Shown here: piece after piece, positions 13,634 through 29,677 of the stretch
Position numbering within the stretch: the first letter of the stretch is position 1
Layout of the letters: every line of letters starts with the position of its first letter
Assembly: GCA_029255605.1 (NCBI GenBank)
Contig: JANLJF010000049.1
Span: 1-62,995, forward strand
Direction: 5' to 3'
Length of the DNA stretch: 62,995 bases
DNA from: Azovibrio restrictus
GTDB taxonomy: Bacteria > Bacteroidota > Bacteroidia > Chitinophagales > Chitinophagaceae
The notes under the pieces: generated by a model
What the model was told of the DNA's origin: nothing
The model's input: only the letters and a program-made list of their open reading frames with translations
Database searches by the model: none
Translations under genes and position numbers: made by a program

Positions 13634-15241
13634 CTACAATCCACCGTAAACATGTAATATATCTATCAGGTCTGCCTTGGTATTGGCTTCTTTCGCCGGC
13701 TTATCCTTCCGCCATCTTAGTATGCGCGGAAACCGCAGCGCTACTCCCGATTTATGCCGCGACGAAGCATTGATTCCCTCAAACCCTATCTCAAACACCA
13801 ACTCGGGCGTTACGCTCCTTACAGGGCCAAATTTATCTGTGGTATGCTTTTTTATCCAGCGGTCCACTTCCAGCAGTTCTTTGTCTGTTAACCCCGAATA
13901 TGCTTTAGCAAATGGCACCAGTTCATCACCATCCCACACCGCAAAGGTGAAGTCAGTGTATAGGTCTGCACGCCGCCCATGCCCGCGTTGTCCGTATATC
14001 AGCACGCCGTCTATCGATAGCGGGTCTACTTTCCATTTCCACCAGTCGCCGCGTCGCCGCCCTGTTTTATACTCGCTGTCTTTACGTTTCAGCATCAGCC
14101 CTTCGCAATTATATTCGCGCGACTTCAGCCTTTGCGCCGCTACTTCTTCCCAGTTTTGGCATATCAGTACGGGCGATAGCCATAGCGGAATGTTGGCTTC
14201 TTTTTCTTTCACCGTTTCAATCAATTGCACCAGCAATTCCCTGCGTTGCATCAGCGATAGGTGCCTGATGTCCACCCCGTCATGCTCCAGCAGGTCGTAG
14301 CATACCATTACCAGCGGCGCTTCCGTCAGCGATTTTTTGGTCACATTCTTTCGTCCTATCCTCGTTTGCATTACATGGAAGGGCAGGAAATTTTCATCTT
14401 TTGCCGGGATGATTTCTCCGTCTATCACGGTGCCACTTGGCAGCAGCTTTGCCAATGGTTCAAATTCAATGAATTTCTCTGTCAGCAGGTCTTCACCGCG
14501 GCTCCATACAAAGAGCTGGTGATCGCGTACGATGATTTGGCCGCGTATCCCATCCATCTTCCGTTCTATTTGCCAGTCTTTTACATCGCCCAGTTCCTCG
14601 GGTGCAGTTTCCAATGCATAGGCCAGGTAAAAAGGGTAGGGCCGTGATATATCTGCCGCATCATGTGTTGCGCTCATCAGGGTATCCAGCAAGGTTTCAT
14701 TGGCCTGCCAGTTGCCTGTCAGCCTGTGCGCTACTATGTTCTCGTCTATGCTATATCGTTTCGCCAGTGCCTTTATGGTTATCTTGTCCGATACACCCAT
14801 ACGGAAGCCACCGGTTATCAGCTTGTTGAAAACAAATAACTCCTGTTGGCTTAGTTGCCGCCACATTCCAGTGATGTAGGCTTTACGCTGGTCATCTGTT
14901 TTATTTTCAAGGGCTATCAGGCTATTGATAACTTCATGTAGTGTATGCGATGTCTCGCCATCACTGCCTTTTAGCAGCAGGCTGATAGTTTCGGCCAGAT
15001 CGCCTACTACATGATACGATTCTTCCAACAGCCATACCGGTGTGCCGCTTGTTTCAGCACACCAGTCTCTTAGCTCACCCGATTTTATGGTGCGCCTGGG
15101 TGTTTTACCTGTTAATAGTGCAACGCACCATATCGCGTCTCTAGGGTCTGCATGCTCAAAATAGTCGGCCAATGCATCTATCTTCTCGTTGGTAGATGTC
15201 GTTTGATCTATGTGTGTAAACAGTTCACTAAATGCCCGCAT
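13634..15241 (-). CDS. ATP-dependent DNA ligase (exonuclease-associated type)
   Basis: 535-residue DNA ligase that seals nicks using ATP. Residues 1-200 are the N-terminal DNA-binding domain, the nucleotidyltransferase core follows with the adenylated lysine K228 in KMDG (228-231), and the OB domain fills the C-terminal 130 or so residues (motif V-like LMLKRKDSEYKTGRRRGDWWKWK). Length and N-terminal domain match the ligases that occur next to a metallo-beta-lactamase exonuclease. It overlaps that partner gene by 14 bp, so the two are coupled. The chromosome must also have the usual NAD-dependent LigA, not seen here, so this enzyme is likely for repair. Confidence 0.9.
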   Translation of the reverse strand: MRAFSELFTHIDQTTSTNEKIDALADYFEHADPRDAIWCVALLTGKTPRRTIKSGELRDWCAETSGTPVWLLEESYHVVGDLAETISLLLKGSDGETSHTLHEVINSLIALENKTDDQRKAYITGMWRQLSQQELFVFNKLITGGFRMGVSDKITIKALAKRYSIDENIVAHRLTGNWQANETLLDTLMSATHDAADISRPYPFYLAYALETAPEELGDVKDWQIERKMDGIRGQIIVRDHQLFVWSRGEDLLTEKFIEFEPLAKLLPSGTVIDGEIIPAKDENFLPFHVMQTRIGRKNVTKKSLTEAPLVMVCYDLLEHDGVDIRHLSLMQRRELLVQLIETVKEKEANIPLWLSPVLICQNWEEVAAQRLKSREYNCEGLMLKRKDSEYKTGRRRGDWWKWKVDPLSIDGVLIYGQRGHGRRADLYTDFTFAVWDGDELVPFAKAYSGLTDKELLEVDRWIKKHTTDKFGPVRSVTPELVFEIGFEGINASSRHKSGVALRFPRILRWRKDKPAKEANTKADLIDILHVYGGL

Positions 15242-16253
15242 CTTCCCCTCCTGTTGTTTCCGGTTCGTCCAGTTGCTCGCCTGTATATAGTGTTTCTACC
15301 TCCGTAGCATTCAGCCCATAGGCATCCTGCAGCCATTTTGCATAAACCGATTTATAACCGTGCGTTACATAAATATGCTCTGCTCCTGTTTCCTTTATCG
15401 CCGTGTTCAGTTGCCCCCAGTCTGCGTGGTCCGACAAAACAAAGCCCCTGTCTGCACCACGCCTGCGGCGCGTGCCGCGTAGCTGCATCCAGCCGCTGCA
15501 AATGCCCAGCTTATAAGGCTGCAGTTTGCGCAGCCACGGCGTGTTTTCTGCCGATGGAGGGGCAATGATGATATCGCCCTTTATATCTTTCGGGTTGATG
15601 CTGCTGTCAATACGCCTTGCAACTGGCAGCGGCTCAATTGCTGCCTCATACAGTTTGTTTATGTTATCTACTGCGCCATGTGTATATATGTTGCCGATAC
15701 TGGGGTCCAGGTGTTTATGTGTACGTTGTGCTTTACCTAGTGCATATCCCAGTATCACAGAGTTCTTGCCTTCTTCCCTGTTTTTACGCCACCAGTCATT
15801 AATATCATGGTGCACGGTTGCAGGGTCAGGAAAGTTATACACCGGTAGCCCAAAGGTGCTTTCGGTTATAAAATGATGACATCGCATCGGTTCAAATGGC
15901 ACAGAAATGCCATCTTCTCCCAATTTATAGTCACCGCTTACTACCCATATCTCTCCCTTGTATTCCAGCCGTACCTGTGCGCTGCCCCATATATGGCCGG
16001 CAGGGTGCAGGCTTATCTTCACGCCATTGATGGTAACAGGTTCATTATAGTCTGCTGTCTGCACCTCAATATCCTGCCCCAGGCGGTAACGCATTACAGG
16101 TGCTGCATGTATATGTGCCAGGTACTTCTTCATACCCCATCGGGCATGGTCGCTGTGCGCATGGGTAATGATGGCATTATCCACGGGTTTCCACGGGTCT
16201 ATATACACATCGGCCTGTGCGCAATAAATGCCGTTCTGGTTAAAAGTGAGCAT
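15228..16253 (-). CDS. Ligase-associated DNA exonuclease (metallo-beta-lactamase fold)
   Basis: 341 residues of the beta-CASP/SNM1-like metallo-beta-lactamase group. The metal motif HAHSDHARWG is at 31-40, with later ligands in PAGHIWGSAQV, VSGDYKLGED and HADWG/THGYKS. This family is known from a conserved repair cassette with an Lhr-type helicase, a ligase and a metallophosphoesterase. Here it is directly upstream of the ligase with a 14-bp overlap. The helicase and phosphoesterase are not in this window. Expected role: end trimming before sealing. Confidence 0.9.
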   Translation of the reverse strand: MLTFNQNGIYCAQADVYIDPWKPVDNAIITHAHSDHARWGMKKYLAHIHAAPVMRYRLGQDIEVQTADYNEPVTINGVKISLHPAGHIWGSAQVRLEYKGEIWVVSGDYKLGEDGISVPFEPMRCHHFITESTFGLPVYNFPDPATVHHDINDWWRKNREEGKNSVILGYALGKAQRTHKHLDPSIGNIYTHGAVDNINKLYEAAIEPLPVARRIDSSINPKDIKGDIIIAPPSAENTPWLRKLQPYKLGICSGWMQLRGTRRRRGADRGFVLSDHADWGQLNTAIKETGAEHIYVTHGYKSVYAKWLQDAYGLNATEVETLYTGEQLDEPETTGGEDAGI

Positions 16254-27593: not shown

Positions 27594-27863
27594 TTATTTT
27601 TGTTTATAGTAGATGGTCATTACTATAATGGCACTATTCGTAACCAGTGAAAAAGCATTGGTGATAATGATAGGCCAGTCTTCTTGCAATATGCCATACC
27701 ATACCCAGCAGGCCAACCCGCAAAGCAGGCATAACAACATCATGATGGAAATGTCGCCGCCTTTCTTCTCTTTTAATATTTTAACGAGTTGTGGTAGCAA
27801 CGATGACCCGGTAAGTACCCCGGCAATTATACCTATCAGCTTTGCAAATACAATCAGCAACAT
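27594..27863 (-). CDS. SemiSWEET sugar transporter
   Basis: 89 residues, one triple-helix bundle (THB), i.e. half of a eukaryotic SWEET. The motif SSLLPQLVKILKEK carries the PQ at 24-25, followed by DISIMMLLCLLCGLACWVWYGI and ITNAFSLVTN, the expected Trp and Asn of the substrate pocket. It would work as a homodimer for sugar transport across the inner membrane. The ATG at 27863 is preferred; an upstream extension adds 20 polar residues that family members lack. Confidence 0.85.
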   Translation of the reverse strand: MLLIVFAKLIGIIAGVLTGSSLLPQLVKILKEKKGGDISIMMLLCLLCGLACWVWYGILQEDWPIIITNAFSLVTNSAIIVMTIYYKQK

Positions 27864-27997
27864 AATAGCTAAGTACTTAAAACTTAAGCCAAGCGCAGTA
27901 TTATGTGTTTTTTGGTATTGCACGTGTTATTTATTCTTGTTATTTTGTTCAGGAAGATCAACACTTAATGCAAAGTAAAAGACCGCGTAGATAAGAG

Positions 27998-29677
27998 ATG
28001 AATACAAAGATCCTTTTACTTGAAAACGACGAAGGCACCTTCGCGCGTTTAGCGAACTATTTGGAAACAGCGGGGTATCCGCCTGATAATATCATCCGTG
28101 TTACTAACATGACGGATATACACCGTTATGGGCGGGAGCCATTGTATCTCATACTTGCTGATATTAATAATTGTTCGGTATCAAAAGAGGAATGCCTTAA
28201 AACCATACAGGATGCTTTCCCGTACACACCCATTATTGTGCTTACGGCATACGATGATGCTACAGCTGCCTACGCTATAAAACAAGGTGTGCAGGATTGC
28301 CTGGTGAAAGAAGAGATAGATGCACGCAGCCTGCGCAAAGCAATGACATTTGCTGTCGAAAGGCAACGCGTGGCTGCAAATTACTCGCGTTTGTTCAGTG
28401 AAAATCCCGTTCCGATATACATATACGACACTGAAACTTTCCGTTTCCTGGCTGTGAATAATGCTGCGTTGAGCCAATACATGTACACCCGCGATGAAAT
28501 GTTGTCAAAGACTGCGCTGGATATACGGCCCGAAGAAGATTGGGAAAGATTCAAATTCCTGTCCGGCAACCTTCCCGATGCTTATTTCGATGCCGGCACC
28601 TGGCGACACATCCGTAAGAATGGGGAGATATTTCATGTGCATATCTACGCCCATGCCACTACGTTTGAAGGAAAGAATGCAAGCATGGTAATGGCCATAG
28701 ATGTAGAGAATAAGATAAGGGCAGAAGCGGAGGCCAGCCGTAAAGCCAGGCAGATGCAGAAAGTTTGGGAAAGCATTACAGATGGCTTGTATGTATTGAA
28801 CAGTAATTGGGAATTTACTTTCGTAAATAAAGAATCGGAACGCATATTAAGGCACCCGAAAGAAGAGCTCCTGGGAAAAAAAGCATGGGACTTTTTTCCA
28901 AATGCAAAAAGCCTGAAACTGTATCATGAGTATCATCGTGCGGTTGCCGAAAAAGTAAGCGTGCATTTTGAAGAATACGTTCCTACTTACGACCTCTGGG
29001 CTTCTATCAATGCCTATCCTACCAGCGAAGGCTTGGTCGTTTATTTGCTGGATGTCACGGCGCAGAAAAAAGCAGGCGAAAAACTTCAGAACGAACAGGA
29101 AAAGCTGCGTGCTATCATTAATAATACACAAGATATCATATGGTCGATAGATAAAAACATGCAGATCATTGATGCTAATAAGCCCTTTTGGGATTACATA
29201 TATGCCATGACAGGCAAAACACAGCAGGAAGTGACGGAAAGCGATTTCAGTAAAGACCTGATGAAATCGTGGGAAGGCTATCTCCAACCTGCATTTGAAG
29301 GCAAGGCATACCGCAGCACTATCAAAAATGAAACACACGGCCACATCACCTATTCTGAGATCAATTTCAGTCCGATATACGATAAGGATAAAAATATAGT
29401 GGGTGTCAGTTGCTTCTCTCGCGATATTACGGAAGAACGGCAGCACCAGGAAATGGTAGAACATCAGAACAGGCAGCTAAAAGAAATAGCCTGGCTGCAA
29501 TCGCATAAGGTGCGCAATCACGTTACAACCATACAGGGGCTGGCACAGTTGTTCAATTATGATGACCCTAACGACCCTACCAACAAGCAAATACTGGACG
29601 GCATACAAGCCACCACTGCCGAGCTAGACCATGTGATAAAAGAAATAAACAGTAAAGCACAAAAGCTGGGCGAATAA
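27998..29677 (+). CDS. Receiver-PAS-PAS-PAS protein ending in an H-box, no ATPase domain
   Basis: 559 residues, cytosolic. Residues 1-122 are a receiver domain with phosphoacceptor D55 (LILADINN), acidic pair E9/D11 and the conserved Lys in DCLVKEEI. Three PAS-like domains follow (about 130-250, 258-372 and 378-490; the last two are typical, with FNSSWEFTFVN-type and IWSIDKNMQIIDANKPFW starts). The C-terminal 58 residues are a helical hairpin with H503 in SHKVRNHVTTIQGL and TAELDHVIKEI. There is no HATPase domain. The hairpin aligns with that of the sensor at 17041. A phosphorelay or scaffold role is inference. The preceding promoter box is degenerate (TTATTTTG). Confidence 0.75.
   Translation: MNTKILLLENDEGTFARLANYLETAGYPPDNIIRVTNMTDIHRYGREPLYLILADINNCSVSKEECLKTIQDAFPYTPIIVLTAYDDATAAYAIKQGVQDCLVKEEIDARSLRKAMTFAVERQRVAANYSRLFSENPVPIYIYDTETFRFLAVNNAALSQYMYTRDEMLSKTALDIRPEEDWERFKFLSGNLPDAYFDAGTWRHIRKNGEIFHVHIYAHATTFEGKNASMVMAIDVENKIRAEAEASRKARQMQKVWESITDGLYVLNSNWEFTFVNKESERILRHPKEELLGKKAWDFFPNAKSLKLYHEYHRAVAEKVSVHFEEYVPTYDLWASINAYPTSEGLVVYLLDVTAQKKAGEKLQNEQEKLRAIINNTQDIIWSIDKNMQIIDANKPFWDYIYAMTGKTQQEVTESDFSKDLMKSWEGYLQPAFEGKAYRSTIKNETHGHITYSEINFSPIYDKDKNIVGVSCFSRDITEERQHQEMVEHQNRQLKEIAWLQSHKVRNHVTTIQGLAQLFNYDDPNDPTNKQILDGIQATTAELDHVIKEINSKAQKLGE

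Follow-up and report, generated by a model that had tools for sequence, protein, structure and literature searches.

P0001, a protein of 559 residues with the architecture REC-PAS-PAS-PAS-DHp, ends in what is, in its predicted structure, a whole DHp with no remnant of an ATPase (CA) domain after the hairpin. It is encoded in a contig of 62,995 nucleotides (the window; JANLJF010000049.1 of assembly GCA_029255605.1), deposited as Azovibrio restrictus and placed by GTDB in the Chitinophagaceae (Bacteroidota). We propose, with a probability of roughly 0.6, that P0001 is a phosphoacceptor-only half-kinase or relay module that would obtain its phosphate from elsewhere, from a kinase acting in trans or from a receiver. 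This role is assigned from membership of a family of CA-less DHp proteins, followed here by sequence comparison in the genome of P0001 and across its phylum. If it is correct, Bacteroidota possess a large layer of phosphoacceptor-only sensors that are unable to use ATP themselves.

Domain architecture and predicted structure of P0001

The reading frame, D55 and H503 are as the preliminary description gave them (Table 1). An AlphaFold2 model built on 30 sequences (mean pLDDT 87.2; pTM 0.38), reliable for the domains and not for their mutual placement, contains a receiver, three PAS folds linked by long helices and a C-terminal two-helix hairpin (block pLDDT 81–92) with H503 in helix 1. The stop follows 56 residues past H503. 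Pfam searches find no HATPase_c domain in P0001 or in P0002, the second CA-less protein of the window, and neither is an orthodox histidine kinase by that measure. The HisKA profile (PF00512) matches P0001 with an E value of 1.1 × 10−4, below its cut-off of 26.9 bits, and P0002 at 32.9 bits, above it; an HPt domain (PF01627) is not matched in P0001 at any E value up to 1. P0001 thus has the architecture REC-(PAS)n-HisKA without HATPase, although its REC match is also below the Pfam cut-off. In a fold search, PAS proteins dominate the best 50 matches listed, which makes it uninformative on the DHp.

Table 1. Positions in the window of P0001, P0002 and their domains and key residues
Feature	Position	Strand	Description	Evidence
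P0001	27998..29677	+	REC-PAS-PAS-PAS-DHp, 559 aa, without ATPase domain	ORF, Pfam, AlphaFold2
P0001 receiver domain	28010..28357	+	Residues 5–120, weak	Pfam (25.9 bits, below cut-off), alignment, model
P0001 D55 codon	28160-28162	+		Alignment
P0001 PAS 1	28415..28702	+	Residues 140–235	Pfam, model
P0001 PAS 2	28784..29053	+	Residues 263–352	Pfam, model
P0001 PAS 3	29135..29425	+	Residues 380–476	Pfam, model
P0001 CA-less DHp module	29429..29671	+	Helices 478–517 and 527–558	HisKA match (22.6 bits), module search, AlphaFold2 hairpin
P0001 H503 codon	29504-29506	+	Putative phosphoacceptor	Sequence
P0002	17041..18048	+	Second CA-less protein of the window, PAS-DHp, 335 aa	Pfam, module search, tree
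P0002 H275 codon	17863-17865	+		Sequence

Eight related modules in one genome

The preliminary description held that the last 58 residues of P0001 (502–559) match those of P0002 and that both tails run directly into a stop. The likeness is real: the P0001 tail alone finds P0002 at an E value of 1.4 × 10−4 with 38% identity, ahead of all CA-bearing kinases in the whole genome, and the two proteins align at 1 × 10−16 over 269 residues of PAS and tail. The aligned part, however, ends at about residue 550, leaving 9 residues before the stop in P0001 and about 14 in P0002; what stands is that no ATPase domain follows in either.

The likeness goes beyond chance and beyond this pair. Searched with a 74-residue P0001 tail, the assembly (3.27 Mb in 163 contigs) yields eight matches at E values up to 1.4 × 10−4 and then a gap, the next matches lying at 0.35 and 0.39. 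Profile searches place HisKA at 33 positions and HATPase_c at 37; by coordinates, a HATPase_c domain comes next at 26 of the HisKA positions and at seven it does not, and one further case from the module search brings the CA-less DHps to eight, among 34 HisKA-type DHps in all. The eight module matches are exactly these eight, P0001 and P0002 included, and all 26 CA-bearing HisKA kinases fall outside. The modules are carried on varied sensory parts: REC-PAS, PAS and, as judged by eye, membrane segments.

From H−12 to H+16, the first-helix segment has a mean identity of 54.6% among the CA-less DHps of this genome, against 28.3% among 24 of its 26 CA-bearing kinases. An EIA-x-x-QSH or DIA-x-x-QSH segment occurs in seven of the eight, and R at +3, G at +11 and L at +12 in every one, a sharing that would be expected if their partners are common. 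Single-domain receivers on contigs C27, C57, C61, C75 and C137 could take part with P0001; the one at G000:C75:31649-31999 (L284) looks, by eye, like the receivers found downstream in the operons described below and is a candidate partner.

A Bacteroidota-wide family with one main clade

The family is not narrowly lineage-specific, as first suggested, but extends across Bacteroidota. A 12-row tail profile matches 92 of 118 Bacteroidota genomes at an E value of 1 × 10−4, an upper bound in that the weaker matches include ordinary kinases; among the matches read, all those above 48 bits stop within 90 residues of the histidine. When the query is cut down to residues 1–480 of P0001, so that it is blind to the tail, 103 of 394 genomes of the family match at 1 × 10−25. 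Nearly all of the matches read end in the module, and every one with the module keeps the histidine; the exceptions are four proteins that have an ATPase domain (L213, L219, L221 and L240), one that lacks the module (L231) and three truncated where the stretch stops (L216, L218 and L227). A pattern scan of named genomes returned 551 stretches, of which 530 were confirmed; the 80 kept of these are all Bacteroidota by title, among them Flavipsychrobacter, Mucilaginibacter, Pedobacter, Cyclobacterium, Dyadobacter and Flavobacterium. The scan pattern fixed the histidine and restricted H+1 to K, E or V, and its stretches are left out of the counts at these two positions. In two genomes of one family, the gene for the CA-less protein is convergent with that for a CA-bearing kinase (L056, G167:C1 near 2408000; L061, G079:C125 near 128000).

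On a tree of 111 DHp segments (57 CA-less and 54 CA-bearing; 70 columns, the CA columns left out), in which many forks are open, the CA-less label changes twice, compared with a shuffled mean of about 37. One clade (SH-aLRT 84) takes 56 of the 57 CA-less rows, and 50 of these lie in a core clade supported at 99; P0002 belongs to the wider clade, outside this core. With 70 columns the tree is suggestive, and not proof, of one main origin of the CA-less DHps. Because 56 of the 57 rows fall in one clade, an old family of Bacteroidota is supported over a broken kinase; that the proteins form a signalling family had been proposed in the preliminary description, and the eight paralogues and the conservation of H503 agree with it.

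Operons pair CA-less proteins with kinases

In other families, the CA-less protein takes a short form of about 340 residues, REC-PAS-DHp, encoded in operons. Among 345 genomes of the class, profile A4 finds ten full-length cases, all ten with a CA-bearing kinase directly upstream; with an extension to families f8 (148 genomes) and f40 (64 genomes) and the earlier loci, 51 distinct operon loci were assembled. Among them is the order kinase, single-domain receiver and REC-PAS-DHp protein, with or without a further receiver. The DHp histidine and the receiver aspartate are each present in 51 of 51 (the aspartate 48 times by pattern and three times by eye). A CA-bearing ORF lies upstream in at least 44, and a single-domain receiver upstream in at least 35 and downstream in at least 20; most loci carry 1.5 kb of upstream sequence, so that these neighbour counts are lower bounds and 11 of the 51 kinases are unreadable.

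Of the 40 readable kinases, 33 have their own histidine and seven another residue (L315, a duplicate of L176, was dropped, reducing these from eight): arginine in three from f40 (L291, L292 and L348), asparagine in two from Cyclobacterium (L164:5521-6513 and L176:5526-6566), glutamine in L342 and lysine in L325. These amount to some four substitutions rather than to seven independent ones. The arginine, asparagine and glutamine kinases, from three lineages, retain the N box and both G boxes; hence in 6 of the 40 readable operons a CA domain without its own histidine stands beside a histidine without a CA domain, the sequence signature of a split kinase, which P0001 does not display. The L325 kinase (G863:C4, upstream of 177728), in which the CA motifs are also gone and a receiver of the single-domain type is fused, would seem to be an inactive kinase retained as a scaffold. 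Among 35 related kinases chosen regardless of neighbours, a set that includes kinases in such operons (at least L243, L245, L252, L253, L260 and L261), the histidine is present in all 34 that are readable, one being unreadable, and the published figure for HisKA domains that have lost it is 0.9% (722 of 76,471; PMC12632262). As A4 was built with two Cyclobacterium proteins, the change to asparagine is seed material; the arginine, glutamine and lysine cases were found with A4 later. Judged from these sequences, the kinase histidine appears to have been lost in a way that complements the CA-less partner, as though a single enzyme had been split over two genes.

The operon link is not a general rule: of 68 named CA-less loci with flanking sequence, 5 have a single-domain receiver as neighbour, and none in the lineage of P0001 does. 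In some lineages (L299, L300, L301 (L276) and L303), a REC-PAS protein that itself carries an ATPase domain occupies the slot of the CA-less protein; the DHp of L276 looks HisKA_3-like by eye.

Proposed routes to the phosphoacceptor histidine

The DHp hairpin of P0001 would most likely dimerise into a four-helix bundle. H503 could then be phosphorylated either directly, in trans, by another kinase's ATPase domain, or by a phosphorylated receiver in a relay step like that of Spo0B or PhyT, and the phosphate would pass on to receiver proteins, with the three PAS domains tuning the transfer. Trans phosphorylation of the CA-less DHp is the simplest account of operons in which the kinase has a CA domain and sometimes no histidine while its partner always has the histidine and no CA domain. 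It is not required in 33 of the 40, because there the kinase has its own histidine. Where such a kinase is accompanied by an intervening single-domain receiver, the trans route and a relay like the one described for Pak, SdrG, PhyT and PhyR (PMC5898713) appear equally possible; either would make the CA-less DHp a phosphoacceptor.

It is nearly an even bet that relay is the only route, the CA-less DHp being a Spo0B- or PhyT-like phosphotransferase fed by a phosphorylated single-domain receiver and never directly by an ATPase domain. The operon order of kinase, single-domain receiver and REC-PAS-DHp protein agrees with this, as does PhyT, whose conserved histidine serves to move phosphate from SdrG~P on to PhyR (PMC5898713), but in the operons of L291, L292 and L348 (His to Arg) and L342 (His to Gln) no receiver gene lies between the gene for the histidine-less kinase and that for the DHp protein. 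More tentatively, and at somewhat less than even odds, we suggest that Bacteroidota contain natural split HisKA kinases, in which a phosphoacceptor REC-PAS-DHp protein and a catalytic DHp-CA protein whose own histidine has repeatedly been lost would act on single-domain receivers; orphans such as P0001 would form a pool of alternative sensory phosphoacceptors that share kinases and receivers in a many-sensor network. The operons supply pairs for testing, His-less kinases beside His proteins without a kinase domain, and make the HisKA-type split kinase, predicted but hardly studied, testable with two or three purified proteins.

For P0001 itself, a trans or relay step is extrapolated from these relatives, as it has no kinase or receiver neighbour and all 26 HisKA kinases of its genome have the phosphoacceptor histidine. 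None of the results points to phosphotransfer between P0001 and P0002 in particular. Pfam searches of ten window proteins found no kinase or receiver gene beside it; a local two-component partner was rejected, the neighbours encoding an NAD(P)-binding protein, a SemiSWEET-type protein, an ABC ATPase and an AMP-binding enzyme.

Conserved and relaxed residues of the DHp

In a phylum sample of 69 loci read from the top of the listed matches (L025–L093; 29 tool-chosen and 40 in score order), the histidine is present in 43 of 44 CA-less rows and R at +3 in all 44. The invariance of H503, put forward for checking in the preliminary description, is thereby upheld, the operon proteins included (51 of 51). 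The one exception, L084 (G166:C8:236682-236867), has tyrosine; L041, a close relative in another genome, has histidine.

The neighbouring positions are relaxed. At H+1, D, E or N occurs in 15 of the 44 CA-less rows and in 30 of the 30 nearest CA-bearing rows; in the genome of P0001, an acid is found in two of the eight CA-less and 25 of the 26 CA-bearing DHps. Loss of the acid is not a clean marker against all CA-bearing relatives, since in the phylum sample it is present in 13 of 44 CA-less and 11 of 30 CA-bearing rows. At H+4, N or T occurs in none of the 44 rows, and in three of the eight CA-less as against 16 of the 26 CA-bearing DHps of the own genome (three motifs in the own-genome counts at both positions were read by eye). 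In CrdS, as reported, the H+1 acid is needed for kinase activity only and N or T at H+4 for phosphatase activity only, and the H371A mutant retains most phosphatase activity (PMC3510030). An invariant histidine fits phosphoacceptor use because phosphatase activity in CrdS mostly survives its loss. A kept histidine with relaxed H+1 and H+4 is the pattern that phosphoacceptor use would predict, and a phosphoacceptor or phosphotransfer role is the likeliest.

A DHp that strips phosphate from receivers has been proposed for archaeal HisKA proteins without HATPase (PMC5847659), and N507 at H+4 allows for phosphatase action in P0001. As the function of the family it is unlikely, given how rarely H+4 is N or T and that the feature hardly needed for this activity (PMC3510030) is the most conserved one.

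Degenerate receivers

The P0001 receiver match, short of the 30.2-bit Pfam cut-off, is the second weakest of 42 in the genome. Its aligned key residues are E9, N10, D55, T83 and K104, with asparagine at the second acidic-pocket position, one of the two metal-binding acids of receivers. The domain looks impaired from its sequence and is probably a weak or pseudo-receiver for docking or control. The aspartate is retained in 28 of 47 REC-bearing module proteins and absent in 19; the proposed invariance of D55 therefore fails, and with N10 in P0001 a conserved intramolecular relay between D55 and H503 is weakened. Published pseudo-receivers (PMC12632262) resemble the 19 module-fused receivers without the aspartate and, at the second acid, P0001, which differs in having D55, T83 and K104.

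Such degeneration would suit a non-catalytic partner, a DHp that heterodimerises with kinases or binds and blocks receivers with H503 unphosphorylated, and so would the seemingly dead kinase linked at L325; we consider this improbable, as the histidine is invariant while H+1 and H+4 drift. A recently broken kinase or an assembly error, for which a stop after the DHp in MAG contigs is what loss of a CA domain would look like, is rejected as highly improbable, since an orthologue 96% identical to P0001 in a second genome of the genus has the same end point, as do relatives, relatives number in the hundreds (530 confirmed stretches), and the CA-less DHps form essentially one clade.

Relation to known systems

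The closest counterparts in architecture are archaeal proteins with an N-terminal REC, PAS and a C-terminal HisKA-like DHp that has its histidine and no HATPase; REC-(PAS/GAF)n-HisKA response regulators are among them, and the same functions have been guessed for them (J Bacteriol 2018, PMC5847659). Those are from Archaea, whereas the present proteins are from Bacteroidota and come with a single-clade test, operons and His-less neighbour kinases. The archaeal proteins are described as mostly misannotated as kinases (PMC5847659), and by analogy the same is likely in Bacteroidota.

Proteins with HisKA and without HATPase have been counted as potential split kinases (1556 of 42417 in SMART; PLoS Comput Biol 2013, PMC3591291). 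In the CheA3/CheA4 split kinase of Rhodobacter sphaeroides, too, phosphoacceptor and ATPase reside on separate proteins, but these are of CheA type with a P1 acceptor domain (PMC3591291); in the present case each half is a HisKA-type DHp protein, the catalytic partner in the operons retaining its DHp with the histidine replaced. Spo0B, ChpT and PhyT likewise use a DHp-like histidine to shuttle phosphate between receivers, single-domain receivers being intermediates (PMC5898713, PMC11210211). In the literature they figure as kinases whose catalytic domain has degenerated (PMC5898713), unlike P0001, in which nothing follows the hairpin. No account of CA-less DHp proteins as a Bacteroidota family came up in a full-text search of the open-licence literature; what appears to be new, as read from sequences, is the expansion within a single clade, the pattern of residue conservation, an operon conserved among relatives and the loss, repeated and complementary, of the kinase histidine.

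Other features of the window

A 398-residue ORF between P0001 and the ABC ATPase has no Pfam match. Between P0001 and the upstream gene for the NAD(P)-binding protein lies that of a small PQ-loop/MtN3 (SemiSWEET-type) membrane protein (27594-27923, minus strand). At 13634-16253 (minus strand), an ATP-dependent DNA ligase gene adjoins one for a metallo-beta-lactamase-fold protein; the two probably act together in DNA repair.
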